NCBI GenBank assembly: GCA_964030785.1
Contig: OZ034969.1
Coordinates: 37,968,001 to 38,032,000, forward strand
Reading direction: 5' to 3'
Source: Siderastrea siderea
Lineage: Eukaryota; Cnidaria; Anthozoa; Scleractinia; Rhizangiidae
DNA: 64,000 bases
Shown here: piece by piece, positions 1,757 to 62,438 of the stretch
How the letters are laid out: each line of letters begins with the position of its first letter
Position numbering within the stretch: position 1 is the first letter of the stretch
Notes under the pieces: model-generated
What the model was told of the DNA's origin: nothing
The model's input: the letters and a program-made list of their open reading frames with translations, nothing else
The model's database searches: none
Made by a program: the position numbers and the translations under genes

Positions 1757-1834
<78 letters not shown>

Positions 1835-2037
1835 GCTTGATTGATTGATTGATTAATTTTATTTTTATACCTGTTTCACAATAAACTGTAGAATGTAAAA
1901 AATGGCGAAGTTTTTCACTTGTCAAATTTTAATGCCATAAACTGTTTTCCGAGTCTGAGTTGTGTTTTGATAAAGGAAACATTAGTCTTCATAGTCTTCA
2001 AGTAAGGCATTTTAAGTGCTTGTCACCATTACATAAG
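1012..2037 (+). repeat. Intron carrying a (TTGA)n microsatellite at 1755-1855
   Basis: The intron lies between the first two exons of the window. At 1755-1855 is a nearly pure TTGA/ATTG tetranucleotide array, interrupted once by TTGCTTGA. Apart from the array I see no gene or recognisable mobile element here. Confidence 0.85.
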
Positions 2038-2208
2038 GTCTTGGTCCTGGAGGTCTGACGATAAAGACAACCCAGTTTCCTGTGGATGCTGAATGTATAC
2101 CTGGTTCAAGCCATGGAGGAAAAGCGAAGTCTCAAGAGCCCATTCCTTTAGATACAGGTCCAGCGTACGATCAACAAGACACAACATCACTACTAGGAGG
2201 AAGCGGAG
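2038..2208 (+). CDS. Polycystin-1-like gene, glycine-rich ectodomain exon
   Basis: The exon follows CATAAG and ends at GGAG|GTAAGC, phase 1 to phase 1. It encodes about 56 residues with GLGPGGL, PGSSHGGK and LLGGSGG. The HGG ... GSGG spacing is a repeating theme in large cnidarian extracellular glycine-rich proteins. It continues in frame from 637-1011 and into 2486-2545. Confidence 0.65.
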
Positions 2209-2485
2209 GTAAGCTTACGTTCTTTTGTCACTTCCATGTATTACATCACATTTCATTTTTAACTCAGTCTCAGTCAATCATAAGCTCACATTACATTAAT
2301 AGTGAAAGAAATGATATCAACTGATCTCTCGAAGGAATCTTGCAATCAAGAAAGCAACCATACCACCGCATCGAAAATCATTTGAAACTGACTAACACTG
2401 TCAAATTCAGGAAATAAAATGGTTGTATTAACCTTGATACTCTATCACTCTATCACTTCAGGTTCGTGTCTCAATACTTATCCAG

Positions 2486-2545
2486 GTGCTGCTGCTGGTG
2501 GAGGAGCATTAGAACTTGTTGCAGAGAAAAGATGGATCACCATAA
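2486..2545 (+). CDS. Polycystin-1-like gene, short glycine-rich exon
   Basis: This 60-base exon lies between CCAG|GT and the donor ATAA|GTAATG. It encodes GAAAGGGALELVAEKRWITI and ends in phase 1. Longer open reading continues past the donor, but only this donor gives the phase needed by the exon at 4066. The joined reading, ...RWITI-N-ASIRASA..., matches the G-A-x-x-L-x-A...I-T-I pattern of the neighbouring exons. Confidence 0.6.
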
Positions 2546-7700: not shown

Positions 7701-8640
7701 CTATATCTTGTTTCAATTGCATTACCGCTGACCGCAACAACACATTTCCTGGCTGATCGTACCGGAAATGACACTGGAAATTTAAACGGGAAATCACTAA
7801 CTTGTAAGTGACCAGTAATTCGATTGCCTTCCAAACCATTCTAAAGAAATGAGTTACAATCAGAGTAAAGTTTTGATTGTGTTGCGTTCACAAAAATAAC
7901 TATAACAAGTAATTTCTAGTAAACAAAATATATGGAACGACTGATTCTTACGACGGTTAAAGAAAGTCACAGAAGACGAAATACGTAAAGTAAAAATATG
8001 CAACAAAAATTTGCCCTATATTTGGGTTTGGTAGCTGAACAAGAAGTGTCCTCAATGTAGCTCATCACGTCTGTTTAATCCTTGCGGCTCCAGTGTCTTA
8101 GCCTTGACAATTAAGTGTGCCTCACGCGCTTTTCTTACCAACCTATCATATTCATTTATTTTTAATTTTTAAACTTTTATGTTAACGGTCCTGTTACGTA
8201 TTTACTCATTTTACTCTTGTAGCCCCTGAAGAAGGTTTGTCTTGCAAACCGAAATATCGAGCAAATTTTTGTTACATATTTTTACTTTACGTATGTCGTC
8301 TTCTGTGCCTTTCTTTAACTGCCGTAAGGATCAGTCGTTCCTTATATTTTTTTACTTCAAATGTTTTACTGACCCAGGTCTACTTAAGATCCGGCAACTC
8401 TCAACCCCTTGTCGCTGTGGTCCTGTCAGTTTATAACTTTGTATCATAAGTAATTTCTACGCTACTAAAAGACAACTTAATAACACTGGCATATTTTAAA
8501 CTGTCTTAGGGAAACGAGAGAGTAGGCTACGATTGCAGCCACCTCTCATCGTTCCCGGCTGCTAGGGATGTTTGCACTGATTGACTGACTCACTGACTGA
8601 ACTGACTGACAGATTGACTCACTAAATGAATGGACTGATT
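7701..8640. other. Intron, nothing recognised
   Basis: AT-rich, with no supported coding exon or element ends. The last 80 bases are degenerate TGACTGAC/TTGC tetranucleotides leading into the array that follows. Confidence 0.45.
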
Positions 8641-8662
8641 CATTGCTTGCTTGCTCGCTTAC

Positions 8663-8903
<241 letters not shown>

Positions 8904-8951
8904 GCGATCGATCGATCTATGAAAGTCCATTATGAAAGACCACGAAAGCAC

Positions 8952-25518: not shown

Positions 25519-27267
25519 CAGGGTTAAACCATGAGCTACAGGAAACATGGAGTTCGAATCGAAAGTTGTTTAAAGGAAACAGCGCTGGAAAGATGTCGAA
25601 GCTTCAATAAAATTATCACGTTACCGTTAGTTCAGTTGTTCTGTGTCTTTGATTTCTACATCATCTTCTGCAAATATCCCTGTTTCTCCCCGATTCTCTG
25701 CTGAGTTCGATGGTAGATGCTTAAACCGCCCGCCATTTTGAAATTCCCTCAGTCCCAGTTCTACCCAGCTAACTGGAAATAAACCTCTCCTGTGAAGCCA
25801 CTGGGTAAGAAGCACTTGGGCCGTTGCTAGGAGATTTGTGCCATTAGCCAATCGTAGGGCCGAAAAGACAATTGCTATTGTTTTTCAAATTCGTCTTTAG
25901 CTGGTAAGAGCAAAAATAACTTTCCAGTCCCCTGCTAACAAACATATGTGAGAAAAAGACGACTCTCCCCACAGGGCAAGAGTCGGAAACGGAAATAAAA
26001 TTTTCTTGTTGGGTCTTTTCTGGGAAACTTTTAGGGAACAGTATTATATTGCATTTACCAAAATTCGGAGCAGCTGTTGTCTCCCCGAAGAAGCTAGCAA
26101 TCACAAAAACAACATACAACATACATGTATTTGTTTGGCCGAAAACAAAAAGCATTAATTTTACCATAGAACACAAGTTCAAGGTTACATTCCGGGGACG
26201 AAAACTCTACTTTGTGATCACGATTAAAATTCTTAAATCCAAATTTTTAGCAACAGAAGCATTATTTTATAGCCGAGCGCTGGAAGCGAATTTTTTGTTT
26301 CGTCTCGCTCTCCGCGCTTGGCTAAATAAACGCTTGTAAGATCTTGTAATGCAGGCTATCCGAACGGACAGTTTCACTGAAACCATCTGTTCTTGCAACT
26401 GCTGATATTAGGTGGGTGAATTGTCTTACCAACCCGTCTTTTCTTCGCTACAATCGTTCCCGGGAAAGCGGGAAGACTTTCAAAATTGTTTTTGTTTATG
26501 TCTCTGGCAATGTTCCTCGACCTTAACATGAAAATAAAGTGTTTGTAGGCTTCGTCCACACTAATTCCATGATTTCCCGGCTGATCGGAACAGTTTTCCT
26601 TCTCGACAACGCAAAATAATTCTCGCAATATAAAATGGACGTTGAGGTTTTGATCCGGCAGCGAGTACACAGGCTCGATTCGTTTCGAAAACGGGAAATA
26701 AATCCGAAAGTAAATATCTCCTTCAAACTGTAAGCGTAAACTAAAGTTAATAATCAAATACGAAAGAACTGGCCACTGATGCGATCTGGTTTTCAACTAA
26801 AAATGAATTTAAATTTCGCAATTTGATTCTACTTTTTGAATCTCCGAGAAAATCCCTGAAAGAAGAACCAAGATAGAACCTAATTTGAATTGCAAATTTT
26901 AATCCGTTGCACGACGACCTTCCATATATGGAAGTCCGTCGTGCAATGTTCTTACGAGCTCGTGACGATAGCCTGGCAAAGATAGCCTACCCACTCGCTT
27001 TAGGGGTTTTTGGTAAGCTGAGTAGAACTGGGACTGAGTGAATTTCAAAATAGCGGGCGGTTTAAGCATCTACCATCGAACTCAGCCGCTGAGAGAATCG
27101 GGGAGAAACAGGGATATTTGCAGAAGATGATGTAGAAATCAAAGACACAGAACAACAGAACTAACGGTAAGGTGATAATTTTATTGAAGCTTCGACATCT
27201 TTCAGCGCTGTTTCCTTGAAACAACTTTCGATTCGAACTCCATGTTTCCTATAGCTCAGGGTTAAAC
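25519..27267. mobile_element. Element with ~250-bp terminal inverted repeats
   Basis: The left arm (25519-25790) and right arm (27000-27267) are inverted copies. Shared words include GGAAACATGGAGTTCGAATC at the outer side and GGCGGTTTAAGCATCTACCA further in. The interior carries minus-strand open frames, the longest at 26374-26796. The right arm abuts or slightly overlaps the Penelope-like 3' end. Superfamily unknown. Confidence 0.7.
26374..26796 (-). CDS. Unrecognised 140-codon open frame inside the inverted-repeat element
   Basis: The ATG-started frame reads MKTRSHQWPVLSYLIINFSL, then FEGDIYFRIYFPF and EPVYSLPDQNLNVHFILREL. It mixes beta-strand-like and charged segments without a transposase motif I know. 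It lies wholly between the inverted repeats, so it is more likely element cargo than host. A shorter unrecognised minus frame (25844-26182) lies next to it. Confidence 0.4.
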   Translation of the reverse strand: MKTRSHQWPVLSYLIINFSLRLQFEGDIYFRIYFPFSKRIEPVYSLPDQNLNVHFILRELFCVVEKENCSDQPGNHGISVDEAYKHFIFMLRSRNIARDINKNNFESLPAFPGTIVAKKRRVGKTIHPPNISSCKNRWFQ

Positions 27268-27898
27268 TCTAAATACGTTACAATTCGAAAATAGAAAGTG
27301 GAAAAAAAAACAAAAAAAATACCAAAAAAAAAACACGCTGAGGATGAAAAACTGGAAAAAGTGTATGTATCATCTCTCCTATTTAAGCCTAGAGGTTCCA
27401 AGGTTTGATCTTTATCGATGAGGTATGCCTCTCTAGCTTTTCGTACACTGTCACGGTTAGATTTCATTAGTTCAAGAGGAATGAGTTGCATGTCATTAGC
27501 ATTATGGTCGTTTGAAAGAAAATGTTCTGAGAGTGCAGTACGTTTACAACTGTTAGTTTGTTTGTCAATTGGTCTACGATGTTCGCTGAAGTGGTCCTTA
27601 AGTCGTTGTTTGGTTTTTCCTATGTACAGGACTGTTTGTGACAGCGATTGCATTGCACCATGTAAATAACGTTTTTCGACTTACAGTCAATGTGATGATT
27701 AATAGGTCTTGTTTCGCCCGTAGAATGAAATGTATAGCTATTGAGCCCGTCTGTTATATAGTTGCATGTCAAGCAGTTGTGTCCGCATCGAAACGAGCCA
27801 CGGGATTGGTTACTTTGGTTAGGGTTACGAAGTTTGGCGCTAACTAATAAATTACTAAGATTGTTACAAAGGGCGGAAAGCAACGAGAGGAGTAGCAT
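27249..27898 (-). pseudogene. Penelope-like linker and GIY-YIG endonuclease, frameshifted
   Basis: The upstream part reads CGHNCLTCNYITDG, then STGETRPINHHIDCKSKNVI and VQCNRCHKQ, a CxxC-rich linker typical before the endonuclease. The downstream frame reads VLYIGKTKQRLKDHFSEHRR and later LSEHFLSNDHNANDMQLIPL. YIGKT and R...H...EHRR are GIY-YIG features. The two parts overlap in different frames, so a frameshift lies near 27640. Confidence 0.88.
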
Positions 27899-27987
27899 TG
27901 AAAACGTTGGCGCAGCGGGGAGATGAGGACAGGATGTTGAGGTGTTTGTGAATAATGCATGACACAGAATGAAGGGCTGGATTATAT

Positions 27988-28346
27988 TAAGAGAAAATAA
28001 GGGGACAGAGAGGGACTCTGAGGGTTTGGCTGGGATATGTCAATTCCACAAAAGTTATTTATAGATTGGCTTTTGAACGGAAGTCTGTGTCCCGAAACGT
28101 CCGCATAAATACCATTTCCCTTGTTTTTCGAAGTCGTTTTCATCGACAAAACGTAACACCACTTGGTCCGCCATTACAAACAAAATTTTGAATGGTTCTT
28201 GATACACCAGATCGAGGTTGCCTTTATGCAGACGTCCGGAAAACAGACTTCCGTTCCAAATGGCCGTCTAAAAATAACTTTACCGAACTTGACATATCCC
28301 AAAGCCTGGACTGGCAGTGTCCCTCTCTGTCCCCTTATTTTCTCTT
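27988..28346. mobile_element. MITE nested in the Penelope-like element
   Basis: About 100-bp inverted arms start AAGAGAAAATAAGGGGACAG at both ends. The direct repeat GATTATAT flanks the element at 27980-27987 and 28347-28354. An 8-bp duplication suggests hAT. It splits the reverse transcriptase from the linker and endonuclease, so it is younger than the host element. Confidence 0.85.
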
Positions 28347-28723
28347 GATTATATGTGATAACCAGGGTCACCCGTTTGGGCTGGTTTGTTTGAGTAGTGT
28401 CTTTGGAATCGAGTGCTTCGGTACGCGTGATGTTGTGAACACGTCGTATTTCTCCGTCAAGGAAAGACAGGTTGTATCCCCGTTTGTTAAGATACGCTTT
28501 TAGTTCAGTAGTGCGTTTTGTGAAAGTGTCGTCAGAAGAACAAATACGGCGGAGTCTAAGAGCTAAGCTGAATGGAATAGCTCTCTTAATGTGTTTAGGA
28601 TGACATGAAGATTGTATTAAGTATTAATGTTTGTCGGTAGGTTTAGGGTAAAGGTCAGTCGTGATTTTACCGTTAATGAGAAACTCGTTGACGTCAAGAA
28701 ATGGTATGGATGTGAAAGAATAG

Positions 28724-28996
28724 TTAGATGTAAATTCTGATGGTGGGGTGAATGTTGTTGAGGTAAGTAGTAAAGGTCTGGAGATCGTCTACTGAGTGTG
28801 TCAATATCATGAAGATGTCATCTATGTAACGCCACCACGTGTGATGCTGGTAAGGGGTACGTGAAAGAGCGTCTGTTTCAAACTTTGCGAGAAACAGATT
28901 AGTATAAGAAGGTGCCATTCTGGTTCCCATGGCAGTTCCGTCTATTTGTAAATAATTCTTGTCGTTGAATGTAAAGTTGTTCATAGTAAGTATCAT
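28724..28996 (-). pseudogene. Penelope-like reverse transcriptase core
   Basis: The reading includes FNDKNYLQIDGTAMGTRMAP, then YTNLFLAKFE and WWRYIDDIFMI. GTxMG, APxYAN-like and the YIDD active-site box are conserved RT motifs, and QxxGTAMG is typical of Penelope-like RTs. The frame is limited by shifts on both sides. Confidence 0.9.
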
Positions 28997-29196
28997 GCGT
29001 ATGAGGTCACATAGAGTTTCAGTACTGATAGTAGAACGGTTGCGAATGCGTGTACCAAGGAAGCGTCGACATGCACCAATGCCTTCGTTATGGGGTATGT
29101 TGGCGTAGAGAGAAGAGACATCAAGAGTGACAAGAAAAGCATTGTAGGGCAGTTGTCCAGGTTATTCGAGATTGTTACGGAAGTGTGTAGTGTCTT

Positions 29197-29524
29197 TTAT
29201 GGGACTGTGTAGCCTGTACAAGAGGTTTGAGGTGAAAGTCTACAAACTGTGAGATGCGTTCCGTAGGATGAGTTACTAGAGACAATAGGTCGTCCAGGGT
29301 TACCCTGTTTATGTACTTTAAGGAAAAATCTAAAACCGCCCAGGTTCAGGATCAGTCTGTATAAGGAAACCTTTAGTGTCATCGGCAATAATTTTCTCAC
29401 GGTGCAGGCGTTCTGCGTACATACGTATGCGTTTTTGGATGTCGTTGTCTAATGTTTTGTAGAATTTGGTATCGTTGAGTTGTCGCAAACATTCGTTAAT
29501 ATGCCATTCACGGTCCATGACCAC
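29197..29524 (-). pseudogene. Penelope-like RT N-terminal part, frameshifted
   Basis: One frame reads VMDREWHINECLRQLNDTKF and DTKGFLIQTDPEPGRF; a second continues FRFFLKVHKQGNPGRPIVSS. The K-x-H-K ... PGRPIVSS motif precedes the RT palm in Penelope-like elements. A frameshift at about 29335 joins them. Confidence 0.85.
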
Positions 29525-29779
29525 TGTTCCAGAGCCCTTGTCCGCGGATTTAAGGACAATGTCACTTCATCTGCTAAGTAGCTTACAACCATGTCGCTCA
29601 CGTGCCGTTAAGTTGTCACGTACATGGGTTGATGTGACGTTGAAGAGGTCGTGTTCGACAGCATCAAGAAAAAGTGTCACAATCAGGGTCCCTGTAGGGT
29701 GGAGGGGTCAAGCTGCTTTTGGGACGGAGTGTGTTGGGATTGGTTTGAGGAGGATGGTCATGAAAGTATTCGAGGAGTC

Positions 29780-30547
29780 TCATACGTCGGCTAAATTCAT
29801 TGAAATCAGCTCTAACTTCAGTCCAGTCAATGTTACGTGGAGTACGACAAAAGGAGAGACCGCTGCAAGCAACTGCGTCTCGACATGAGTAAGAGTGACA
29901 GTGCTCAAGTTGATAACAGCATTGTTGTCTAGTTGAATCTTATGGTTATCGCGTCTCCAGTATCTGTTAGTCGTGGACTTCCGTTTTCGGCGACGTCTGT
30001 GTTTGCGTGTGGGAGAAGAATGGTTGATAGCGGTCATGACTTGAAAGTGATTAGCGGATGTTGTGACTGGTGAAGGTGGGCGGTTGACAGTATATTGCTC
30101 TAGGTTACGAGAACGGTTAAGTTGGTTAGAATTATTATATTATTATTATGACGTGTACGAGCAGAAGTAAGAGAGGCATACTCACCAGCTGAGTATAGTT
30201 TCCTGCGTTGTCTAGTCTGAAGTTCACGAAATAGTTTAGCTGCAGAATCACGAAGAAAGTGTTTGATTTGTTTAAATGTAGAAGCAAAGCATGTAGATTG
30301 GAGTTTATCAAAGGTGTCTCTGAATTCTGATCTTAATAGTCTCAAATTCTTCTGGCATTCTGTTCTAAGGAGTTTAACCAGTTTATGAGATGTACGTGTC
30401 AGTAATCTTGTCCGCTGATAGTGGAACTGTTCATGACAGGCTGAGTCAATACTAGATTTTGGATTAATCAACTGACTTGATGAGGTAGATTGGCCACCGT
30501 AAAGAGTTTGAACTGACGTTTCGAGTGTTAGCCCTTCGAATTCGCTC

Positions 30548-30581
<34 letters not shown>

Positions 30582-30650
30582 AGTCTCTTTACGGTGGTCG
30601 ACCTACCTTATCAACTCAGTCGATAAATCCAAAATTTTGTGTTTCACGTC

Positions 30651-30686
<36 letters not shown>

Positions 30687-31080
30687 ACCCCCTTGTTTGT
30701 GAGTCAATACTAGGTCTGCATTTGATAAGAAGTCCTTTCGGAATAATCTTGTGGTCGTAACAGTAGATATAATTAGATTCATGGTGTTTATAACGGGTAC
30801 GTTTTAGTTGCAAGCGTTTAGCGTTCTTGAAGAGCTTCCGCTGTTCGGAGTTGGTGAAGACCCTTACCATATGTATTGCTGTAGGGCCATGCTTTGGGCA
30901 ATGAGAAGCAATGGAGACTTGTGTAGGCATTTCAACACACAGCATTTTGATCATAGGGACAACTGTCAGAAGAAACTCTTCTCTCCGTTTTAAGTGGCAA
31001 GCTGAAAGGAGGGGAGCTACTATCTGTAATCTGTGACAGAGGAATATGTATTTGTAGCAAGAGAGCAAAGAAAGATGCAC
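29780..31080 (-). pseudogene. Penelope-like N-terminal region, interrupted
   Basis: The minus-strand frames at 31080-30616, 30471-30100 and 30037-29780 look like one N-terminal region. The first has a C-x-H cluster and ends IIPKGLLIKCRPSIDS; the second resumes SIDSACHEQFHYQRT and is basic and helical; the third contains NNAVINLSTVTLTHVE. The gap between the first two is exactly the 244-base insertion at 30456-30699 with its target duplication. Confidence 0.7.
30456..30699 (+). mobile_element. 244-bp palindromic element with hammerhead-like core and 14-bp target duplication
   Basis: TGAGTCAATACTAG occurs on both sides (30442-30455, 30700-30713). The insert has two arms of about 84 bases in inverted orientation, around AATTCGCTCT. 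On the plus strand CTGACGA (30547-30553), a short hairpin-like spacer, GAAAC (30567-30571) and GTC (30572-30574) follow the hammerhead ribozyme order CUGANGA ... GAAA ... UH. The right tail is GTTTCTTTAGAAACTAACCC. Hammerhead motifs are known in Penelope-like terminal repeats and in small non-autonomous retrozymes. This is the candidate class, by inference. Confidence 0.75.
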
Positions 31081-31290
31081 ATAACTCCAAGAAGCAGCAA
31101 ACTCGTCGTCATTTTAAATGTTCCTGAACCGCTCCTGTGAGGATTTGAAAGCGTGAAGGCCTTAGAGTCATTCTCTGTACGACCCTAAAGAAGAAAAGCT
31201 GTGCCTTTTGAAATATTGGTTAAAATATACACTTAGTTTCCCTACCGTTGAATCAGCATGGCTTTTTTATCGTATCTAGACGCTGCCGAA

Positions 31291-43171: not shown

Positions 43172-43209
43172 TTAAAATGTTCGCCTCTAAAATGGTTGTC
43201 ATTTTACAG

Positions 43210-43839
43210 ATGTGGAGTACTCCTTTTAACCCTTTTTCCTGGGACAAAAGCAGTCAAAGAGTGACAACACATGTGGCAAGCTTAGAAGTCAGAGACGGTA
43301 ACGGCAACCTAATACCTATCTCTGGACTGTCACTCTTAGTACCTCTTGGCCAACCAGCTCCTTACCATACAATTAAGTCACTTGGCAAACTTGGAGTGCT
43401 AAGGCATCACAACATCAGCGTTAAGCATGAACATTCCATGGTTGAGATCTTGATAGTACCTCAAGACAGTCAGATCACTATCTCATATCTCAAAGTAACG
43501 CAACCCAATAAAGTATCACCGCGAAAAACGCCTTTGGAATGCAAACGTGCACAGGGAGAGTGGTTCCATAAAGGAAGCATCACTTGCAAAGGAAAAACTA
43601 ATGTGACAATCTCCTTTATTGCATTCCATCCTGGTAACTACCTTCTTGAATCAGAGTTTCGTGTTCAGCAAAACAGGAAAGAGGATGTCAAAGAAAACGA
43701 AGACCAGGAGCAATGCATCAGGATCAAGGAACCTCCTAGGCCACAAATAGAAAACGTAAACTACACGTTTACAGTTAGTGAAGCTGCTTGTCTTTTCTGG
43801 GACTTAAATGAAAGTAACTGGAGCACTAAAGGATGTAAG
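43210..43839 (+). CDS. Polycystin-1-like gene, main GAIN exon and first half of GPS
   Basis: Acceptor GTTGTCATTTTACAG, donor TGTAAG|GTACAA, phase 0 to 0, 210 codons. It begins MWSTPFNPFSWDKSSQRVTT, contains beta-rich segments such as NGNLIPISGLSLLVPLG, and ends EAACLFWDLNESNWSTKGCK. The C-x-F/W-W ... W-S-x-x-G-C block is the first half of a GPS motif, whose second half is the next exon. The GAIN fold drives self-cleavage in this family. Fully open and the second-longest intact exon of the gene. Confidence 0.9.
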
Positions 43840-44475
43840 GTACAAAATATGCATCGCCGTTTGTGTCTCTGTGCTTGTATCTTCTTTCCCGTGACTTAAG
43901 CTGGACACACCTAGCGTCTTTATACGCTCTTTGTGGTGAAATTGATCGCCAGGAATATCAGTTTTCCAATCACGGAACCGGGCACACTATCTAGGCAGTA
44001 GTCAGTGATATTTGCAAACAGCTGGCAAATGTAATTAGTCGAAACCTGAAATGTCAGATATCGGCAATTTAGATAGCTCATCACAGCAATCAGGCAAAAA
44101 CTGCCGACATGTAGATGGAAGCAAACCTGGTGATATGTGCTGATTGCCGTCAAGAGCGGTGGAAATCGCTTATTGTGACCCTGCTTGGGAAAATGTACCC
44201 ATCTATCGACTTTTGTATCAAATATGCTAGTAAAATATCTGCCCACTAATAATCATCCCAAACGACCACTCTTGGTTCCTTAAACCAGTTGTAAATCAGT
44301 CGTAGACAAATGCTGATTATATAATACTCCTGAACTGCAATGTGTGTTGTTGTTTGTGCATGATTATCACATCTCCAAGAACACAACATCTGGTTAAAAC
44401 AAAGGTCATCACCTACACTGTACCTCTACAATAACAGTAGCGATAATGTTAATGACTCCTTGCTGTCATTCAAAG
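43840..44475. other. Intron, nothing recognised
   Basis: A minus-strand open frame of 108 codons lies here without domain features, and I do not call it a gene. Confidence 0.5.
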
Positions 44476-44717
44476 GTAGAAGAAATAATCAGCAACTCCG
44501 CCCTGAAGTGTTCTTGTACTCACCTGACCTCATTTGCTGGGGGACTTCTGGTACCGCCAAATTAAATGAAATCAACTTAAAAGAGGTGTATAGTGAGCTC
44601 CGATCTCCCGAAGACACCGGTAAATTTCTAGCCCTTGCAACGGTCGTAATCTGTTTGTTCATTTACGTGATTGCAGTTCTTTGGGCCAGGAGGTTTGACA
44701 ACAAGGATAAGGCTGAG
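44476..44717 (+). pseudogene. Polycystin-1-like gene, GPS second half and helix 1, one-base frameshift
   Basis: The exon begins VEEIISNSALKCSCTHLTSF with C-x-C-x-H-L-T (HLT at 44521-44529, the cleavage site) and GGLLVPPN. At about 44562 that frame meets TAA, while the next frame continues NEINLKEVYSELRSPEDTGK and the hydrophobic helix LATVVICLFIYVIAVLWARR. The length is 242, one short of a multiple of three, and both outer borders need phase 0. A single missing base near AATTAAAT explains everything. Confidence 0.85.
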
Positions 44718-45248
44718 GTAAGACATACTGTACAGTAGACTTACAGTAGTAGCAAAATTGTCTAGTAATGGATAACAGACACCTTTATTACAAGTACTAA
44801 TTAATGCTAAGGTCAAAGACGGAACTACCGAGATTGGCAGAAATATATCAACAAATGGCTGACTAAACAGAAGCAACTAGGAGGTGTTGTACATAAAGCC
44901 ACTGTTGGGTAAGGACTGATACCAAACTGGTCAACTCACTCAGAGCCAACACAATTACCTGCACCATGCCATATCACTAACAACACAAGGATAATAATAG
45001 ATAAATAATAGAGAACGGGCAGAAAAATCCCGGTAAGTTAACCAATTAGATCAATAACCAGAGACAGACCTGATGAAAAACCATATACTTGACTTTTCAC
45101 ATTTAATCAAAAGGTCAACGAACGTCACAAACTACAGTGATTTTCCAGACTTCTCGCACACGAATACATTAGACACACACTGAGTCTCTTGGGTTTCAAA
45201 CATTTACTAAGTTAGTTAAATTTGTAATCTCAAATTTGTAATCCTCAG
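44718..45248. other. Intron, nothing recognised
   Basis: No supported features before the acceptor AATCCTCAG. Confidence 0.5.
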
Positions 45249-45497
45249 GTCCAAGATACAGAACCTTTAGTTATCTGTGCTGCGTCAGAAACAGAAAGTC
45301 ACAGATACGAGTTGCAGTAAATACGGGTGTCTGGCCAGGTGCAGGAACAACAGCTAACGTGTCTTTCATCATCTACGGCGTTGAAGGCAACAGCGGTACT
45401 CTAAACATGAATGAAAACGGTAGTACTGCCTCCAAACTAATCTTCACCCGAGGGACTGAACGAAAGATTGCAATCATTTCACAGGAAAATCGAGTGT
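45249..45497 (+). pseudogene. Polycystin-1-like gene, PLAT exon 1, one-base frameshift
   Basis: It begins VQDTEPLVICAASETESHRY-ELQ and meets TAA at 45318. One base over, the PLAT pattern continues: VNTGVWPGAGTTANVSFIIY and later LIFTRGTERKIAIIS. T-G-x-x-x-G-A-G-T-T-A-x-V is the PLAT hallmark. A missing G after CAG restores the frame. The donor is unclear: CGA|GTGTGT at 45493 (phase 0) or T|GTTAAA at 45497 (phase 1); only the latter suits the next exon. PLAT domains bind lipids or partner proteins on the cytosolic side. Confidence 0.8.
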
Positions 45498-45780
45498 GTT
45501 AAATAACACCGAGAGTGGTATAAATTTACACGATATTCGCGTTACCACGACACTGACAGAGTGTAATTACAACATTACACCAATTTTGCGTTAGATAACA
45601 CCAAAATGGTGTAATCGAATCAGGATGCAGCACCTTCTTGGTGTTTTTTTACACTAAAGCTGTGTAGCAAAAACCTTGCAAGGTTTTTTCAGGATTTAAC
45701 ACCGCTGGTATGTAATTTAACACTGCATCGTGTAAGTCAAGCACGAACAAGGTGTAAAGTAACACCAAATGTCAATTACG
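45494..45780 (+). repeat. GTGTAA/TTACAC word array at the intron start
   Basis: From the first intron bases onward, short inverted words GGTGTAA, TTACACC, GTGTTA and TAACACC recur at irregular spacing. The same words fill the last 480 bases of this intron (51000-51480). Confidence 0.75.
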
Positions 45781-47009
45781 TTTTCTTGTCGGGCATCGAT
45801 CAGGCAACTTTCTAAAACGACTAGATCACCTCCACATATGACGTCTGGGCTGCAAAATCAGCTTATAATCAAATAGAAGATATTGTACAATGTAGCTGAC
45901 AAGATAGGTTTGCTATTTAGACTGGTGGATAGCTCCATATAGTTACCTTTTTATAAGATCTGAAAACAAATCCGCCATTTAATACAATATAATACTGGGG
46001 ACATTCTGATTATTTGTTTTCGTGAGCAGCTAATGCGCAAAAGGTTTACCATAAGCCTGGAAGATAATAAGGGTTGCAGCGAATATAGCAAATTTCCCTG
46101 GTGAACCCCGGTGAGACAAGCAGAATGCAAGTTGCACTAGCAGTGGCGGACATTGGATTACGCCACATTTTAGGGGAGTGTCATATGTATAATTTCTCTT
46201 TTCAGCAGCGATTGAAATAAATATTAATGGTCAGTGCAGATGAGAGTGTTTTTTTTTTTTTAACTTTTTTCACGAGCGGATTGTCTACTACTGCCCGACA
46301 GTTATTGCGGTCAGCGGTGCCTCGCTGCTCTTGATGTGCTGTGCGCACGCTAACACAGATCTGACGAGAGGAGCACATGCTTCAAGCGATTTTCGATGCT
46401 TTTCGTGTGCCTGTCGTTTATTCCTAGTACATTCTGGTTTCTGGCATTGCCTGATGTCCTGCTACTGCAATACCGTCAATAAGACACGCGGTAAGTGACT
46501 TTATTTGGTAATTTTAAGTCAAAACGAGTGAATACATACTTTATAGAACTAGCTCTGACAGCAGACAACAATCATGAATGTCATTAAGACATGCTTTGTT
46601 CAAATTGTAGCTCAACTCTTAACCCCATAATTATCACGCCAAAATCTCCAAATGCCCATTTTCAAAATGCTTTTCTTGTGAGTAAAATGAAACAGTTCGA
46701 TGAATGGTTTTTCGGGTGTTCGAAACGAGCGCCATTTGCAGTCGGTTGTAAGACTTAAATTTGATTGTTTATGAACGGCAGTTTTGCTGTATTTGAATAA
46801 TGTGGTCCAAAATATCGCCAAACACAGTTAATGACCTTTACTAATGTGTGAAAAGTAGCCTAGTACGAAATAAAGAATACAGATGGCCCAAACGTGTCAG
46901 GTTTAAGATAACAATTTGAATAATTTTATGGAAATTTGGCGGTACGAAAATTTATGCAGTTTTACCATTTTGGCGCCAAAAGTCGTTGAAGACAATGTCG
47001 CTTCTACCC
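45781..47009 (+). other. Intron interior; possible 5' exon of a nested transcript
   Basis: ATGTCCTGCTACTGCAATAC at about 46454 opens a short frame (MSCYCNTVNKTR) that runs into a perfect donor CACGCG|GTAAGT at 46491. With the terminal-exon-like site at 50450 this might mark a small gene nested in the intron. No middle exons were identified, so it is only a hint. Confidence 0.25.
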
Positions 47010-47475
47010 GCTCATTACTTGGACTGTGCTCCTTCAAAGATGGTGATTATTCATCAGAGTTTGCCAGAGCAGAACAGAAAAAATGAGAATAGGAAAATCA
47101 ACTGACAAATCTTTTACTTTCTCTTTTCATTTTGAATTCAATGTCACCCTCTCTCTGAAGGATACAGTGTGCCTTGCATAGTTGTGTAAAGTGGTTTTCC
47201 GCTTTTAACCAGCTCCAATGTTGAGTGGCTGTTGCCCGCTCATTACTTGGACTGTGCTCCTTCAAAGATGGTGATTTTTTGTTATGAGAATTTGTTAAAG
47301 CAACACAGAGATATTCAGAATAGAAAGGTTAACTGACACATCTTTTACTTTCACTTTTAAATTTTGAATTCAATGTCGCCCTCTCGTTGAAGGACACAGT
47401 GTGCCTTGTGTAGTTGTTGAAGTGGTTTTCCGCTTTTAACCAGCTCCAATGTTGAGTGGCTTCTGTCCGCTCATT

Positions 47476-48508
47476 CAGGGATCATGCTACTCCTTGAAGT
47501 CCTTGAAAAGCCCTGGAATTTAATTTTAGATTTCAAGGGTGCTTGAAAAGCACAGATTATATAAACATTGAACACAGATTTTAAAATCGGAGACAGAATT
47601 TTCGAAAATATGCGTCTCAGCCTGTGCTGTTACATGCTGGGTGGAATTCTGTGTTGTGTGCATTGCATTCTGGGATCAGTTTCTTAACTATGTGATCAGG
47701 TGGAAGCCATCTTGTACATCTTGTATGCATAGTTAGGGTGAACGGACGAAAACTCATCTAAACATGAATCAAAATGCCTGGCGGAGGTGAATGTGTTTTC
47801 AATTCTGATTTAGCTTGTAGACGTTGTGTAACAAGATTGGTTACAAGGTGTCAAAGATGATAAACGTGCTGCCTATTGTAGGCTGTGCTGCCGAAAGTTT
47901 AGATAAGCGAGTATAGGCCAAGCAGCTTTAAGGTTTCATATGGAAGGAGCAAAACACCAAACATGCGTTATGGATTCTGCAAATCCAGTTCCTATTGCAG
48001 ATGATTTTCGTGATCAGATAGGGACACTAAAATCATGTTTTACTGCCATTCTGTGTGTTCAGGAGTTTTAAAGTTTTCGGGCCAGAATTATGACAATTTT
48101 ATCCTTTCCAAAAGCCTGTTGTACCTCAGTGTTGTTGTCAGCATGTGTCTGCCATCAACTTCAGTCAAAAAAACAAACATTGCTTTCAGACTATATTGTT
48201 GTTAAGATTATTGTTGAGATTATTGTTTGGTATAGTGTTGCTTTATTGGATTATGTGTTTGGTTTTTCTTCACCACATACAAGGCTTTTGGTCCCGTAAG
48301 AACTATGAACTTGTTATGCATCCCTGTTTATGAATTATTACAGACTTGATATTGATGTTGCATTTGTTTTAAAGTTGCTGTTGACCAATGAAAACATATC
48401 AAAAGATTATGCAAGACGAAGTAAACTTGCCATGAACACTCCTTGAAAACTCAGTTTTTGGTGCTTGAATACCCCTTGAATTTTATACCCACAAACCAGC
48501 ACGAACTC
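47476..48508 (+). mobile_element. hAT-like insertion with a zinc-finger fragment
   Basis: The insertion begins CAGGGATCATGCT and ends with a diverged inverse of it. Shared flanking sequence CTCATT to NGCTCATT (6-8 bp, ambiguous because the site lies in a repeat) suggests a target duplication. The interior encodes a zinc-finger piece on the plus strand. hAT is favoured by the CAGRG start and the finger, but is not proven. Confidence 0.6.
47829..48070 (+). pseudogene. C2H2/BED-like zinc-finger remnant
   Basis: The frame reads QDWLQGVKDDKRAAYCRLCC-RKFR, then a TAA, then ASIGQAALRFHMEGAKHQTC. C-x-x-C, the G-x-x-A-L-x-x-H core and H-x-x-x-A-K-H define a zinc finger of the kind found at the N-terminus of hAT-type transposases and related genes. 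The stop and lack of the rest make it dead. Confidence 0.65.
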
Positions 48509-48949
48509 TGCTCATTACTTGGACTGTGCTCCTTCAAAGATGGTGATTATTTATCAGAATTTGTCAGAGCGGAACAAAAATAATGAAAATAGAAAAATCA
48601 GTCGACAAATATTTTACTTTCTCTTTTCATTTTGAATTTAATGTCTGAAGGACACAGTGTGTCTTGCACAGTTGTGTAAAGTGGTTTTCCACTTTTAACT
48701 ACCTCCAATGTTGAGTGACTACTACCTGCTCATTACTTGGACTGTGCTTCTTCAAAGATAGTGATTATTTATCAGAATTTGCTAAAACAGGACAGGCAAA
48801 ATTAGCTCACAAATCTTGCAAGGAGGGAAAAGACAGTACAATAGCATTGCCATTTTTTTTTTCATCAAAGTAGCAGAGGGGCAGATTGTACTGTAGTAGA
48901 GTCCTGGCCCTCATTGCCTACATGTACAGTTGTAAACAGGAACAGACTG

Positions 48950-50230
48950 AGTGATACATCCAACTTACTGAATAATATACACAAGTGACCAAACACATCT
49001 AACAAAGCATTGGTCCCTCTGTTGATTTCGTTCTTTTGTTTCATGAAACAAAGGATTTAATTGGTTTCTTTTGTTTAGGTTTTTAACAAAAGAAAATAGA
49101 AGATGGGGCCTCATTTTTTGGCCTTTTCTGGAAAACTAAGTGTAAACTGGCAGGAAAAAAACAGGGTATGTTCTCTGAATTCATTGAAGCCCACATGCAA
49201 AAATTCAGGCACTTTCAAGCTAAAAAAATTGACCAAAAAAATCTCTTGGGGACTTTCCACTAGCCTCTTCAAAAAATCTCTTGGGGACTTTCCACTAGCC
49301 TCTTCAAATGTTGTTTACATAAAGAGTGGTCCAAAACTGACTGAGTGATACACACAACTGTCCAGCATACTACTCAGTAAGCCATGTTGTCAGTCACTGA
49401 ATTGAATATACGTTTCACTCAGCTGTTTATACCAACTGGTCAATTGTATAGACTTCTCGGTCGGTTTTGTGTACCCCTGTGCCAGTTGTCTTTTTCACTA
49501 CAGCTGTCAAGTCAGTTGTATCACTAGGCGAGTTGTGTGGAGTTATCCACACATTTCAACTGACAACTGACCTGAATGATACAACTGCCCCAGTGGTGTA
49601 CACAACTGACTGAGTGGTAGCCGCAACTGATCAAGTAACTGGGTGGTACTCACAAGTTAGCAAGTGGTGCACACAACTCACAGGGTGATAAATGACTGAG
49701 TGAAACACAGTTGTAAAAGTTATGTGTTCTTAGTGGTGCACATAACTGACTTAGTAGACAAGACAGGTACATGTAGTCACAACTGACTGAGTGTCAAACT
49801 GGTGGTCCACCCTGCTCTTCCAAGTGGTGTAAAGACTGTATGTAATATTACCCAACTTACTGAGTGATCCACATAACTGATCTAGTGGTATAAACAACTG
49901 AGTGAACTGATCGAGTGGTTTGCTCAATTGACCGAGTGGTATACAATACTGACCAAGTATTAAACACTTAACCCTTTAAGCCCTGATATAGAAATGCATA
50001 TTCTCCGTACTGTTCACCATACATTTCTTATGGAACTAGTAAGGAGAATTTGTCATAATATCAATACATCTCATCCTTGGTGATTGTTTTCTTCATTCTC
50101 ACAACTTGGATGTTTGAACAAGCAGTGATCATGTAAGGAGAAATTTCATTTCTGTCACTGTTAGGGCTTAAAGGGTTAACAGACTGAGCAATACAGTACA
50201 TGTATGTACAACTGTCTGACAGAGTATTCC
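48950..50230 (+). repeat. Degenerate ACTGAGTGGT minisatellite
   Basis: Imperfect units of about 20-30 bases built on CAACTGACTGAGTGGTACAC recur across the stretch, with a non-repeat island at about 49980-50180. Near 49205-49310 a separate 45-base unit (CTCTTGGGGACTTTCCACTA) is duplicated side by side. Confidence 0.7.
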
Positions 50231-50449
50231 ATCTAACTGAACAATAAGTGTTACTGAGGGCTGTTTTCTTTTAGAGCTGTAGTGGTATTTTTTTAAATTT
50301 TGTATATAGCTGACCAAAATAAGTTTGTTTCCAGATCTTGGTGCAAAAAGAAATAAACTTGAATAAGTGACATTCAGTATTGCCTAATCATGGTGTGTAC
50401 AAGTGGGTAATTAATATAGCATTACTAATTTTTATCTTTTTTTTTTCAG

Positions 50450-50919
50450 TGGATTGATGAATCAGATGGAGGTGGTTTCTGAACTGGGTGTGGTTTATCA
50501 TCAAAATCCCTCACTCAATCTGCATTTATTGACTTCATTTTTCTATAACAACTATAAAAGTACTCTAAATCAAAATGCCTTTTGAAAGGCCTTTTATTTT
50601 TGTATGAGTTTGGTTTTCATTATTTTGGCACATCAACTTAGGTGTTAACAAAAATGAAGTATACAGAAGTTAATGCACTGTTTGGACTGGAATCTTTGTA
50701 GCTTTCTTATATTTTTATAACTATCTTACTCAGTGTCACCACTTTATTGAATTCTAAGGCATTAGTAGCATCTTTGTAATTTATAGTGAGTTTCCACGGT
50801 TGCACTGAAAGGTTTATTTTTCTACATGTAGACTTATTGTTTTTGGCAAAAAATCGTATTTTTGGACGCATTTTATTTTAAGGTATAGTATACCAAATAA
50901 ATATTCACTGTGAAATAAA
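50450..50919 (+). other. Terminal-exon-like site with two polyadenylation signals
   Basis: A strong T-rich acceptor ends TTTTTTCAG at 50449. It is followed by a short frame WIDESDGGGF and a stop (50480-50482), then about 430 bases of AT-rich sequence with AATAAA at 50896 and 50914. This looks like the last exon and 3' UTR of an unidentified transcript within the intron, or a captured copy of one. Confidence 0.35.
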
Positions 50920-50989
50920 TTTGGAAACTAGTGATGTCTGTCTCCTTCAGCAGCAATGATTACAATGTTTAAGTAGCCCACATCCATCT

Positions 50990-51490
50990 TTTATTTTAGT
51001 GTTGAAGTACACTAGAACAGTGTTAAGATAACACGTGGAGGGTGTTATCAACATAGTTGGAAGTGTTATTTTACACAGTTTTAGTGTAAAATTATCTCTG
51101 GTGTAAATTAACCTTGTTTCGGTGTGCACACAGCTGCAAGTTGTTTTACACCATTTGGGTGTCACAAGTACACAAGATTAGTGTAAAATTACCTCTGGTG
51201 TAAATTAACCTTGTTTTGGTGTGCACACAGCTGCAAGTTGTTTTACACCATTTGGGTGTCACAAGTACACTTTTTTGGTGTAAACTTACCCGAATTCCGC
51301 GTCTACATAACACTGTGTTGGTGTTTTTTTACCCAATCCAAATCAGAATTGTTAGTGGTTTACACTATTGTGGTGTAAATGTACACCATGTTGGCGTTAC
51401 TTTTACACTTAATTGGTGTTCACACAGCTGCAAAAATTTACACTTTTTTGGTGTTACCATAACACTCTCACTTTTTCTGTGTTTGAAAAA
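50990..51490 (+). repeat. GTGTAA/TTACAC word array at the intron end
   Basis: The array mirrors 45494-45780. Two near-identical ~65-base units (GTGTAAAATTACCTCTGGTG ... TTTGGGTGTCACAAGTACAC) stand in tandem at about 51080-51270. It runs up to the TTTGAAAAAAG acceptor of the next exon. It is in part open in the exon's frame, but that is not gene-like. Confidence 0.75.
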
Positions 51491-51492
51491 AG

Positions 51493-52490
51493 ACATAGGG
51501 GAGATTTATTCACTACGTGTTTGGCATGACAACTCAGGCGATGCCCCTTCATGGTATTTGGAGGACGTAACCATTACAAATCCTAACTCTGGTAGCTGTT
51601 GGAAATTCGTGTTCGAGACATGGCTTAGTCTAGAGGATGAATCATACTCCAGTGAGGTGCTTCAAAACCCTGTCTGCTCCGGTCCAAAGATAACAACGAC
51701 AGCTTTAAGGGAAGTGTTTTCCAATGGCCATCTCTGGTTGTCAATCATTACCAAAACCCCAGAAGACCCTTTTACCAGAGTACAAAGGATTTCATCATGC
51801 ATTTGTCTGTTGTTCTGTACAATGGCTGCTAATGCTGCATTCTATTACTTGGGAACGCAATCACACTAAACCGTCAACCTAGGACCACTTAAGTTTTCTG
51901 CCAGACAAGCGATCGTCAGCATACAGAGCAGCATTCTTATCTTGCCCCTGCACCTCGTCATTCTGTTGTTGAAGAAAAGCTCGGCACGTTTAGAAAGCGA
52001 CCACTCTCGCCCATATCTTTGTTTGTTCTACATGACAAGTATTCTGTGTGCGTTGATGGCTGTTGCTTCAGCTGCCGTGACCATTGCCTACAGTCTTGTG
52101 TGGGGAAGCGAGAAAAGCCAAGAGTGGATTTCTTCAGTCACCACCTCTTTTCTTCAAGACGTTCTAATCGTGCAACCATGCAAATGTCTTCTTCTTGCCT
52201 CTCTTGCGGTGATGTTTTCAAAATCCAAAGTAAAGGAGGCTTTTGCTTATCAACAAAGGGAAGGTGGGATGCCACAGAAGAAAACTCCGGCTATTTCAAT
52301 GACGTCCAAGAAGTTATCAAAGCTAAGAATGGAAAGTGTCGCCAAAGCCAAACGACGTTTGTCCATTCGTCAAGCATGCTTCTATTCAGCATTTCTTGTG
52401 GTTCTTGGAGTGCTTTCGTATGGAAATAGAGACTCGGGACGATACTTTTTATTCAAATCACTCGACGATCATATTGGGAATTTTGAGAAG
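51493..52490 (+). pseudogene. Polycystin-1-like gene, PLAT end and membrane region, in-frame TAA
   Basis: Reads IGEIYSLRVWHDNSGDAPSW (PLAT end), then GHLWLSIITKTPEDPFTRVQ and FCTMAANAAFYYLGTQSH, a typical polycystin-1 cytosolic and helix segment. TAA at 51867-51869 interrupts it. The same frame continues TVNLGPLKFSARQAIVSIQS, two more helices, a basic loop (AKAKRRLSIRQACFYSAFLV) and HIGNFEK to the donor GAGAAG|GTAATT. Family members carry GTQS-x-x-(x)-I/L-GPLxFS here, so the stop replaces one residue. Phase 1 in, phase 0 out. Confidence 0.88.
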
Positions 52491-55141
52491 GTAATTGAAC
52501 TTTGTGCATTTAAGAATTTCACCATTGCCTGTGAAAATTTAATTCACAAAAACACTGTACAATCAGAACAATGACTCCAACATTGTTTACCTGAGCCAGT
52601 AGGCAACATAATTTTAAATTTCTCAAATCTGGACATAATGATAGAGACGATCGGTTGGGATTCATCATTCGAACACACCTAGGTCATTGTATCTGTTAAA
52701 ATCTATTCTCTGTAAGTTAAGGGACCAATTTGGAACATTGGTAACCTGACAATGTCCGTTTTAAACATTTTAGTTCTCTCCAAAATCAGGAAGATTTAAG
52801 ACAGGATGAATTGCTTGGTTGTGTGCGATTCAGACTAGGCAGAAAAATACAGTTATTGTTAAGGTCGGCAGGCACGGAGTGTGCATTTCAGGAAAAGGGC
52901 CCGTGTAACAGCCATGTTCTTGGGACCAAATTGTTTGAAGGAACGTTTGAACCGGCAAAAGTCTTGGAGAGCTAGTCGTTCATAGCTTCACGTTCTCGTA
53001 GTGATTTTTTTTAGAAGTGAATTATTTCATCCACACAGGACTCCATTTCGTGGAGTTTAGGTGGAAATAAGATGCAGAATTATGTTGTTGCCATAATGAT
53101 TCTACATCCGAAAAACTCAATTTACTGAGGTTGGAGTTCTTTGTGATTGACAGCTTATTTCCCGTTCTGCATTTACATCACTCAGCTAGGCAAAAGCGTT
53201 TATAGCTAGACATTTTGAAACTGGAACCAAATCTTCCAGAGATTGATTTAAAGTGTCTCCTCAAGACCCTCAAAGTGCATTTTTACCTCGTGATTCCAGT
53301 AGCAACCAAGAGATTATGCGACAACATAAAGGGGTATTGGGCTCCAGGGCCCCAAGACGAAAAATTCGGGGCTCTAGAGCTCCATCTCTCCACTCCAGGG
53401 TTCTGTTTGACCAGAATGAGCATTTCAGTCCGGACTCTAAGTAGCGAAATCCATTAGGCTCCAGGCTTCGCGACAAAAACAGGCCCCCAAAGACCCCCTT
53501 TAGGACCTTGATTATGGGAGAGAAACTTATTGGTAAAATACAAAACTTTCCTCGCAGAAATTACAAAATCTAACAAACAAACGAGCAAAAAAGCATCAAC
53601 AACCACGAGATATCCCGGTCCGTGGGACGGTTATTTAGTCATAACTGGTTATCAAAGGACATGTCCAAACAACGTCCAGGGAAAACAGTACAGAGTACTA
53701 GTACTAAATGCAAAAGTACAAAGGGGCCTGGATGGTAGTGCAGTGCTAAAGGTACATGTTTAGACCGGTTTTTGTCAGATTCTTCCTCTTGGCTTGTGAA
53801 AGAGTTCTGATTTTCTTCACCTGTAGGAAATACAAACGCAAGCGCAAACTGAACTAATGGCCATCTTGGAAAGGTGCTCCAAATGTGCATGCACATCTGG
53901 AAACCTCTTTGCTTGCATTGGCAACGTAACGAAATTGGTTTCTTTCGTGCATGTACATCTGCATTATATATGGAAACTCTAAATTCGAAGAAATTCAAAA
54001 ATTCAAAATTCCAACTCTCTGAACCCAGCCTGCATAAAAAAGGTGACACATTACAGGGACATTTAATCGCAGACCCATAACCATCTGCAAAAACAAATTA
54101 TTTCATGCACTTGCAAAATATCGTGAGGAGTTTTCGCATTCAATTACTTCATGGAACACCATCGAACATTTACGTTAACATGTTTATGCAAAAACAAACG
54201 ACTCTCGATTACCCACAACTGAAAGACAAGAAAGTAGAGATATTTAATTACAAAAGAAAAAATATAAATAGAGATTGTCATCGCTTTGACAATATGAATA
54301 TATCTACTAGTTTGAACCTGTAAATGTACTTGACTGAAGGTATTCAAAAAGTCGGACGCAAGGATGACTACAAAACTGAGCATATTAGAGACATTTCATA
54401 TCCTAGTTAAAACCAGATTGTAACACTAGTACAAATAAACGCATAGGACATCTACCAAATAAAAATTAGCTGCTAAAAAATCAGACCGTTTACAAGGCTG
54501 TAGTAACTGTTTCATAAATCCCACATGGTCGTTCATGAGTGCTTATCAGGCTTGATCTTGATCAGCTAAATTAGGTAAATTACCTCTCGTATGAATTAAA
54601 TTTCCTATTCAAGGTTGTTTTCACTCTGTTAAGTGCTGCGACGTTCCAAAATTGACAATTTAACAGAAGAAATATTTTTCTATTTACATGTGATGAATAT
54701 GACGAGACTGTAGCCAAGTTGGTGATGTAAGTCGTGTTGGTTATTATACCCTTTTACTACATACCAAATGAGTGGATATTGTTTTCCATGCGCTCTGATT
54801 GGCTACTCAAACTGGAGATAGTATCTGCCATTCACCTCCCGGTATTTCTCTGGATTTAGTGCGCAAATTTTCCCTCATTTCTCAGAAACCAAGGAACAAT
54901 TTGCTGCCGGCCACCACTGGTTTGGCATGTACTAAAACAATTATTCACCTCAGTGTTGGATATTTACCTCATCTCTTCTGGGCTCGGCAAATATCCACCG
55001 CTATTCACCTCCGCTTCAGTGAATAATTGGTAATTATCCAATAGTCCATCATGGAATAGTTGTTAAATATCGATGATAGTGACGCATTTCACAAGACATA
55101 CACATGCTTCCATTACATAACAAATGTCAATTCTCTTCCAG
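52491..55141. other. Intron, nothing clearly recognised
   Basis: At 53220-53480 GGGCTCCAGGGCCCC/GGGCTCTAGAGCTCC words suggest a small repeat. Several short frames at 53530-54380 show no domain features and lie on both strands of the same DNA. Confidence 0.45.
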
Positions 55142-55307
55142 GTAACAGATACAAATATGTTCTGGAGTTGGACGAATGAGTCCCTAGTTCCCTATCTCTA
55201 TTCCAGTCACCACCAATCTACTTATCAGGAGACTTCACTGGTGAGCGGCGAGCTCACGTCGACTATGATTGGAATGTTACGATTACGCCAACTAAGAACA
55301 AGAGAGG
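55142..55307 (+). CDS. Polycystin-1-like gene, start of the polycystin (TOP) loop
   Basis: Acceptor TCTCTTCCAG, donor AGAGAGG|GTCAGT, phase 0 in, phase 1 out. It encodes 55 residues: VTDTNMFWSWTNESLVPYLY, then SSHHQSTYQETSLVSGELTS and IGMLRLRQLRTRE. F-W-x-W-T...L-V-P-x-L-Y and G-x-x-R-L-R-Q-L-R are signatures of the extracellular polycystin domain. Confidence 0.85.
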
Positions 55308-55818
55308 GTCAGTAAAATCAGGCTACTGAATTTCAAGATCTGAGCTATTGATAACTATATTTAAAGTGAAGGTTTCACGTTATATAGTTTTGCATAACAG
55401 GTTGAAGTTTAATTTATTATGACATATAATTATTAATATATTTTTACTTTGCATAACAATCTGTCGACAACGGTTCCAGTTTTGCAAGAAATCCAAGAAA
55501 AATCCTTGTCAAAAAGCTAAATTGCCCCTGGAACACCATCCTGTGACTGTGTCAAACAGGGTCACATAATGAGGCACTCTTTCTTAAACAGGGACAGCAT
55601 TTACGGGGTGCAGTGCCACTTCCTAACCCAAGCTTCCATGAACCACCCTCTGCTCTTCCGCCCTTTCTTTCCCTTCCCACCTATTTGTTTCCAAATTTAT
55701 TAATGTTCCAAAATTTGTACATTCTTTCCTTTTTGTTTGTTAGTCCAATGCCCAGTACTCAACAGCTGGTGACAACGTTCATGTTATGATATATATTCTA
55801 CTGAGAAGGAGTCCAGAG

Positions 55819-62329: not shown

Positions 62330-62438
62330 ACTTAGTTGATGAGGAAAATTGGCCATTGTAAAGAAATTGAAAGCTGATGTCTTGAGTGTAAGACCTTCGC
62401 CAGAGCGAATCAAGAAATTGTGCGATGTAATTGGTTTA

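Follow-up and report, generated by a model that had tools for sequence, protein, structure and literature searches.

The locus analysed here lies in a stretch of 64,000 nucleotides of the Siderastrea siderea genome (contig OZ034969.1; hereafter the window) and raises the question of what a 244-bp palindromic insert, flanked by a perfect 14-bp target-site duplication (TSD), represents within a decayed Penelope-like element (PLE), and how its two inverted arms came into being. The question touches on an unsettled matter, i.e. the mode of insertion of PLEs and the reason why many of their copies are inverted, with an optional tail. The insert is the end piece of a PLE, of which two copies seem to have entered the genome back to back during a single event. 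The repeat search of the window agrees with the initial annotation as to the palindrome and the direct repeat: the two copies of TGAGTCAATACTAG are identical at 14/14 positions, and the inverted arms comprise an outer pair (30448-30512 and 30579-30643, 82% identity) and an inner pair (30513-30538 and 30551-30576, 92% identity). Folded as RNA, the 244 nt reach -129.4 kcal/mol, against -53.3 kcal/mol (sd 4.0) for shuffled sequences (z -18.9). The left arm of this copy has ATTTTGG at its outer end and CCCTTCG at its inner end; it was left unplaced by the script, and the +4 inner end given in Table 1 is deduced from the pairing of 30538 with 30551. The right arm ends at a putative start site of reverse transcription (site 2), CCAAAATTTTG.

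Table 1. Parts of the insert and of the host element, in coordinates of the window
Feature	Position	Strand	Remarks
Host PLE, broken frames, approximate limits	27252..31113	-	Insert flanked on either side by N-terminal pieces
Host PLE, GIY-YIG endonuclease piece	27300-27653	-	Weak match (E=1.8e-4), short of the curated cut-off by 0.4 bit
Host PLE, RT piece	28727-29161	-	PF00078, E=4.5e-8
Left TSD, TGAGTCAATACTAG	30442..30455	.	Repeat search; identical TSD at L002-L004, same contig
Left (inverted) arm	30456..30538	-	Copy of the PLE end, from putative RT start site 2 to hammerhead +4
Apex junction	30538..30540	.	Site that varies among nearly all other copies
Right (direct) arm	30540..30639	+	Inner end ATTCGC at -7 of CTGACGA; ends at putative RT start site 2
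PLE-type minimal hammerhead (predicted)	30544..30577	+	Read from the sequence; genome-wide pattern and stem II pairing
Tail, 60 nt, non-palindromic, with AC-rich stem-loop CCACAGTTTCTTTAGAAACTAACCCCC	30640..30699	+	Present on one arm only
Right TSD	30700..30713	.	Repeat search

As had been stated from the letters of the locus, the insert breaks the minus-strand N-terminal frame of the host PLE, which is split at IKCRPSIDS / SIDSACHEQ. The insertion is present, with an identical TSD, at three other places of the same contig (L002-L004), and thus it probably predates the duplications of the window locus. The window contains also a second, more diverged copy at 62314-62474, in which the inverted arm is about 78-80% identical, the tail 97% over 32 nt, and the direct arm is mostly absent. 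Elsewhere in the window, a minus-strand ORF at 8640-8951 consists mostly of repeated NQSI residues, i.e. of a short tandem repeat that is open in one frame, and the ORFs at 43177-57152 resemble pieces of what we take to be a polycystin/PKD-type membrane protein gene.

Copies of the insert were collected in two ways. The search of the genome with the 272-base query gave 2760 candidates, the best 40 places, which were scored, being 87-100% identical; eight of them (L002-L004, L010, L013, L028, L031 and L039) were dropped for flanks in common with a kept place, and the resulting set of 32 copies is thus one chosen by whole-unit similarity. These copies mostly start at (C)AAAATTTTGG and finish at CCCCCTTGTTTG, each with its own flanking repeats. 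The second sample was obtained with a 64-nt tail query, which is blind to the sequence upstream, avoids the bias of whole-unit selection and includes exact 64-nt tail matches only: the best 40 places of 1670 candidates gave 41 matches, all exact, and 30 places were fetched, with ten scored places and the 41st match left out. These 30 places comprise 17 palindromes (13 recognized by the script, and L047, L052, L065 and L069 by eye), 9 long 3' ends of a longer element and 4 short direct copies; the duplicates set aside are the palindromic L056, L063, L064 and L066, and L059, which duplicates L058. The palindromic form had been regarded as unusual, a view at odds with the 17/30 tail places and with the inverted pLTRs described in the available part of PMC3846280. 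The genome-wide search for the unit and its TSDs, which had been proposed as a check, did reveal other discrete copies: direct repeats of at least 8 nt flank 26 of the 38 resolved copies (two of the 26, L007 and L011, are of low complexity), compared to 13 of 1406 mismatched flank pairs, none of the 13 exceeding 8 nt; three of the 41 copies (L043, L049, L054) were unplaced in this test. Where clear, the TSDs vary between 8 and 16 nt. An exact 39-mer that starts at GATTCGC and extends over the hammerhead has 223 occurrences in the genome, versus 0 for its reversed control; viral contigs scanned for two element motifs gave 0 matches to each.

The identity of the parent element follows from the longer copies. 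A GIY-YIG ORF lies just upstream of the repeat in 4 of the 9 long ends (L048, L055, L057 and L070, recognized by eye in the translations); that of L070, YIGETGRRLGDRFREHL, ends 93 nt from the repeat and matches PF01541 (E=1.7e-4) at a score that misses the curated cut-off by 0.4 bit. Two further driver ORFs, found with the ORF piece of L068 (for which no Pfam family was matched), adjoin the repeat: in L074 one ORF combines RVT_1 (29.7 bits, cut-off 29.6) with GIY-YIG (21.7 bits, cut-off 22.6), and the ORF of L075 scores 22.7 bits for GIY-YIG (cut-off 22.6). Because GIY-YIG and RT ORFs adjoin it in the longer copies, the repeat is the 3' end of a PLE. We considered and rejected the host PLE as the driver, as the driver ORF piece is 52% identical to it over 50 aa, and the host endonuclease piece, used as a query, matched 0/30 tail loci at E<=1e-3. 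Thus, judged by these ORFs, the driver is a PLE of a family different from the host, and the insert did not, as had been supposed, land in a member of its driver family. None of the 30 tail copies visibly runs on into an ORF past the tail, so the full-length 5' end of the driver was not seen among them, and no 5' pLTR of the driver was found within the fetched stretches of L072-L076, five of at least 150 RT matches. In one driver copy, L072 (535-1432), tandem 248-bp repeats, 99% alike, lie between the PLE RT and its 3' end.

The hammerhead of the insert is composed of helix I (GCT 30544-30546 with AGC 30575-30577), CTGACGA (30547-30553) followed by an extra A (30554), stem II (GGGC 30555-30558 with GCTT 30563-30566, loop TAAC 30559-30562), GAAAC (30567-30571) and GTC (30572-30574), with the cut predicted after 30574; the second strand of stem II is GCTT in the window copy and GCTC in most copies. 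Since GTC directly adjoins GAAAC, there is no helix III in cis, and GAAACGTC is intact, with no insert, in 29/32 copies (point changes in L018, L021 and L037). The stretch at 30547-30571 is the sole match in the window to CTGANGA-N(6-30)-GAAAC, but 1.21 matches are expected by chance, so the motif alone is not significant there; it is significant genome-wide, CTGANGA-N(10-24)-GAAACGTC giving 5341 matches compared to 109 for the reversed control pattern. From the first genome matches listed, 34 distinct strings were typed (near-identical ones omitted) and grouped into 14 spacer clusters, the first string of each being scored. A stem II of 3-7 bp, flush with GAAAC after a one-nucleotide skip past CTGANGA, is found in 9/14 clusters, and 5/14 lack such a stem in this register; with no skip or a skip of two nucleotides the longest stem is 2 bp. 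That the letters differ while the pairing persists supports a real stem II, i.e. covariation between families. Across the whole genome, one additional nucleotide, A or T, regularly separates CTGANGA from stem II in several spacer clusters.

By its core and the genome-wide pattern, the hammerhead is of the PLE kind, in line with the initial annotation, and belongs to the known minimal type that lacks helix III; the earlier suggestion that activity may need dimers is plausible for a motif of this type. The primary reports of such hammerheads are said to be those of Cervera and De la Pena in 2014 and of Lunse et al. in 2017. The covariance-model check recommended earlier failed to return a hammerhead, the Rfam hammerhead models giving no match in three stretches even at E<=10, a miss that does not settle the matter, given the lack of helix III in PLE hammerheads. 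The full core is present on the plus strand in 25/32 copies and on the minus strand in 10/32; the window copy (L001) is not among the latter, in agreement with the previous reading of a complete core on the plus strand alone. Cis cleavage is predicted to be unlikely in the window copy, because the whole palindrome folds so stably and the hammerhead fold is weaker than its competitor (in a 49-nt piece, -5.3 kcal/mol for the forced monomer hammerhead versus -11.7 kcal/mol for the MFE).

The many short palindromes offer countable junctions, likely to correspond to RNA 5' ends, RT start sites and cDNA joins, so that priming on two strands, self-priming and processing by the ribozyme can be told apart mostly from the sequence. 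At the outer side, the direct arm ends after the tail. Among the 9 independent palindromes placed by the script, seven have an inverted arm that stops about 60 nt earlier, near site 2 (unit position 98-107), and in the remaining two (L043, L054) it stops at 64 and 74; the tail is never included in this arm. The tail sample contains 13 independent palindromes, and in 10 of them the inner end of the direct arm lies at -8 to -3 relative to CTGACGA (9 by script, and L046 by its BLAST start): at -8 in L041, L046, L047, L049, L054 and L065, at -7 in L053 and L061, at -6 in L060 and at -3 in L044. The other three end further in, at +1 in L052 (BLAST: -4), at +6 in L043, and far inside in L069, where the arm starts at unit position 42. 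No direct arm among the 13 extends beyond -8, a wall at GATTCGC which is imperfect in the biased 32-copy set, where L015 matches the template to -9 and L009 to -10; the right arm of the window copy ends one base inside it. Of the three short direct copies that are independent, L067 and L045 begin there as well (-8/-7), and the long elements continue through the GATTCGC point. The inner ends of the left arms are spread between -12 and +14, with a peak at +4 (8/36 readings); in L043 this arm overshoots the wall and reaches -12, which would be possible on a longer template.

A TATA-like box is found upstream of the wall in 7 of the 9 long copies: in five the CATATAAA-like sequence precedes the wall by 29 nt, in two others the distances are 33 and 38 nt, and the last two lack the box. 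A TATA box about 29 nt upstream together with a pyrimidine-purine step is what is expected of a polymerase II start site. The fit of the box distance and of the pyrimidine-purine step suggests that the GATTCGC wall corresponds to the 5' end of an RNA which the ribozyme had left uncut; in most copies the template was not processed by the ribozyme, since the arms run through its cut site. An extra G at the apex (GGATTCGC) in several copies might be thought to derive from a cap, which we do not claim, as it is confounded by the G that ends the left arm.

The apex itself could be read in 31/32 copies, yielding 30 distinct strings of 15 lengths (12-32 nt), a count of strings that is inflated by point mutations; small loops and short matches occur at the apices. 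The two arms of one copy agree with each other: the G/A marker is concordant in 29/32 copies (Fisher p 2.8e-6), and the arm distance is 0.0527 within a copy versus 0.0593 between copies, a difference reached by 1/20000 permutations. The variable apices together with the agreement of the arms suggest that the palindrome was formed at insertion, which speaks against the former assertion that it moved as a discrete unit, if a self-propagating palindrome is meant by this.

The explanation that we consider probable is that the insert is a retrotransposed pLTR with the tail of a GIY-YIG PLE of another family, brought into palindromic form by priming on two strands and joining. A transcript would start at GATTCGC, just upstream of the hammerhead, from the TATA-like box in the 3' pLTR, and the PLE protein would initiate reverse transcription at an internal position, either of two sites separated by about 60 nt. 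Both target strands would be cut with a stagger of about 8-16 nt, each priming one cDNA; the cDNA from the outer site would carry the tail and that from the inner site would be without it. Both cDNAs would reach the RNA 5' end, or nearly so, and be joined head to head, and gap repair would leave the target duplication. The two-strand priming, the transcription start and the joining are what we infer from the junctions; two-strand priming with head-to-head joining would account for the outer ends, the apex, the wall and the agreement of the arms. The product, whose start lies downstream of the TATA-like box, is probably inactive from the outset. The concordance of the arms could also stem from gene conversion between them after insertion, the wall could be a stop of the RT at structured RNA instead of an RNA 5' end, and a read-out transcript from a 3' pLTR could just as well have been the short template. 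The window copy is itself the weakest example of like arms, because its arms are the most diverged of the 32 copies (15.9%); it can be reconciled with arms that were alike when formed only on the assumption that it is an old copy or that its arms came from different RNA sources.

Or perhaps the second strand was primed by the first? According to this explanation, proposed for the head-to-head inverted pLTRs of bdelloid Penelope (PMC3846280, available part), one cDNA or an antisense template snaps back and primes its own second strand, which would yield identical arms, matching the marker concordance, and would fit the small loops and short matches at the apices. However, a snap-back should copy the tail and the flank, and the inverted arms, which fall about 60 nt short in 7/9 palindromes and more in two, do not include them; the markers of the two arms are also discordant in 3/32 copies, although later mutation could explain this. 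We therefore regard self-priming as unlikely. Quite improbable, in our opinion, is a non-autonomous mobile family (retrozyme- or SINE-like) that is transcribed as a palindrome, perhaps circularized by the hammerhead, and moved in trans by a PLE. Discrete copies of about 245 bp, flanked by TSDs, are numerous, 10/32 have the full core on both strands or on the minus strand, and animal retrozymes, of 170-400 nt, are thought to be PLE-driven (PMC7229834, available part); yet a family propagating as such is difficult to reconcile with 30 different apices among the 31 copies read, even if point mutations contribute, or with arms that are not separate lineages (the left-right distance within a copy, 0.0527, compares with 0.0563 between left arms and 0.0627 between right arms). 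Moreover, there are no adjacent tandem units in L001-L040 (in L038 a second unit in the same orientation lies 1.25 kb away), the unit begins downstream of the TATA-like box, and its transcript would collapse into a rod-like fold (-129 kcal/mol) in which the ribozyme is buried. The inverted arms and the TSD might also bring to mind a DNA transposon of the foldback or MITE type, with hammerhead-like letters by chance, but this reading can practically be dismissed, as the termini are not mutual inverted repeats, the tail is on one side only, the TSDs vary in length, and the sequence runs into the GIY-YIG PLE ORF in longer copies.

The retrotransposed PLE end primed on two strands may have larger counterparts. 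The RT search covered the driver and more distant PLE families (best 150 of 3725 candidates), and among the 150 matches listed the neighbouring ones within 6 kb are arranged head to head in 14/15 cases, in tandem in 1 and tail to tail in 0; five of these pairs, on C6, are near-equally spaced and perhaps represent one duplicated locus, which leaves about 10 distinct pairs. In L073 and L074 the inverted arms include the endonuclease, and the tail is on one arm only. L076 contains at 483-3045 a palindrome of about 2.57 kb of PLE RT sequence with halves 94.6% identical, and pairs of like spacing occur on the same contig. It is tempting to generalize, with appreciable reservation, that reverse transcription of two RNAs, primed on two strands and followed by head-to-head joining, might be the ordinary insertion of GIY-YIG PLEs, that inverted pLTRs, one-sided tails and palindromes of 244 bp to a few kb could be its products, and that the template might be a capped RNA, uncleaved by the ribozyme, from a TATA-driven start before the hammerhead.

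With respect to the known systems, the continuity with RT/GIY-YIG ORFs, the short and variable TSDs and the tail on one inverted pLTR place the insert among PLE derivatives; a survey of the literature, at the level of titles and the openings of abstracts, revealed no report of ORF-less palindromic PLE ends. The metazoan non-LTR retrozymes (PMC7229834) include small hammerhead repeats of similar size in corals, but the available part of that source presents them as tandem, with canonical type I hammerheads and circular RNA, whereas here we deal with a single palindrome and a minimal hammerhead, and the absence of adjacent units from L001-L040 speaks against this assignment. Minimal PLE hammerheads, which according to the available parts of reviews (PMC6155905, PMC7761336, PMC6466107) number thousands across many animal genomes and can work as dimers without helix III, share with our motif the same core and the missing helix, dimer cleavage being their feature; in the clusters studied here a single A or T before stem II is regular, and one or two nucleotides inserted between CUGANGA and stem II are within the known range (PMC10085705, available part).

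The closest genomic parallels are the Penelope elements of bdelloids, flies and fish (PMC3846280), which, in the part of the source available, likewise exhibit an inverted pLTR pair, one 3' tail, a short TSD and palindromes at junctions, and for which non-PLE sequences trapped between solo pLTRs are also known. They differ from the copies described here in that nothing lies between the two pLTRs in many of the latter, in that the sister copies exhibit a 5' wall and apices of their own, and in that two-strand priming is proposed here over self-priming. The closest biochemical parallel is the purified Anolis PLE (PAc) studied by Frangieh et al. (PMC11167929), which, as the available part of that report describes, cuts and extends both target strands and initiates reverse transcription at two internal sites, one at either end of the tail, and whose hammerhead mutants still insert, cleavage by the hammerhead being dispensable. 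PAc resembles the present element in the AC-rich stem-loop as the RT start, in the two sites bounding the tail and in the hammerhead at the start of the element; in the same part of the report inverted genomic copies are not derived from two-strand priming, whereas the junctions that would fit it come from the copies analysed here.
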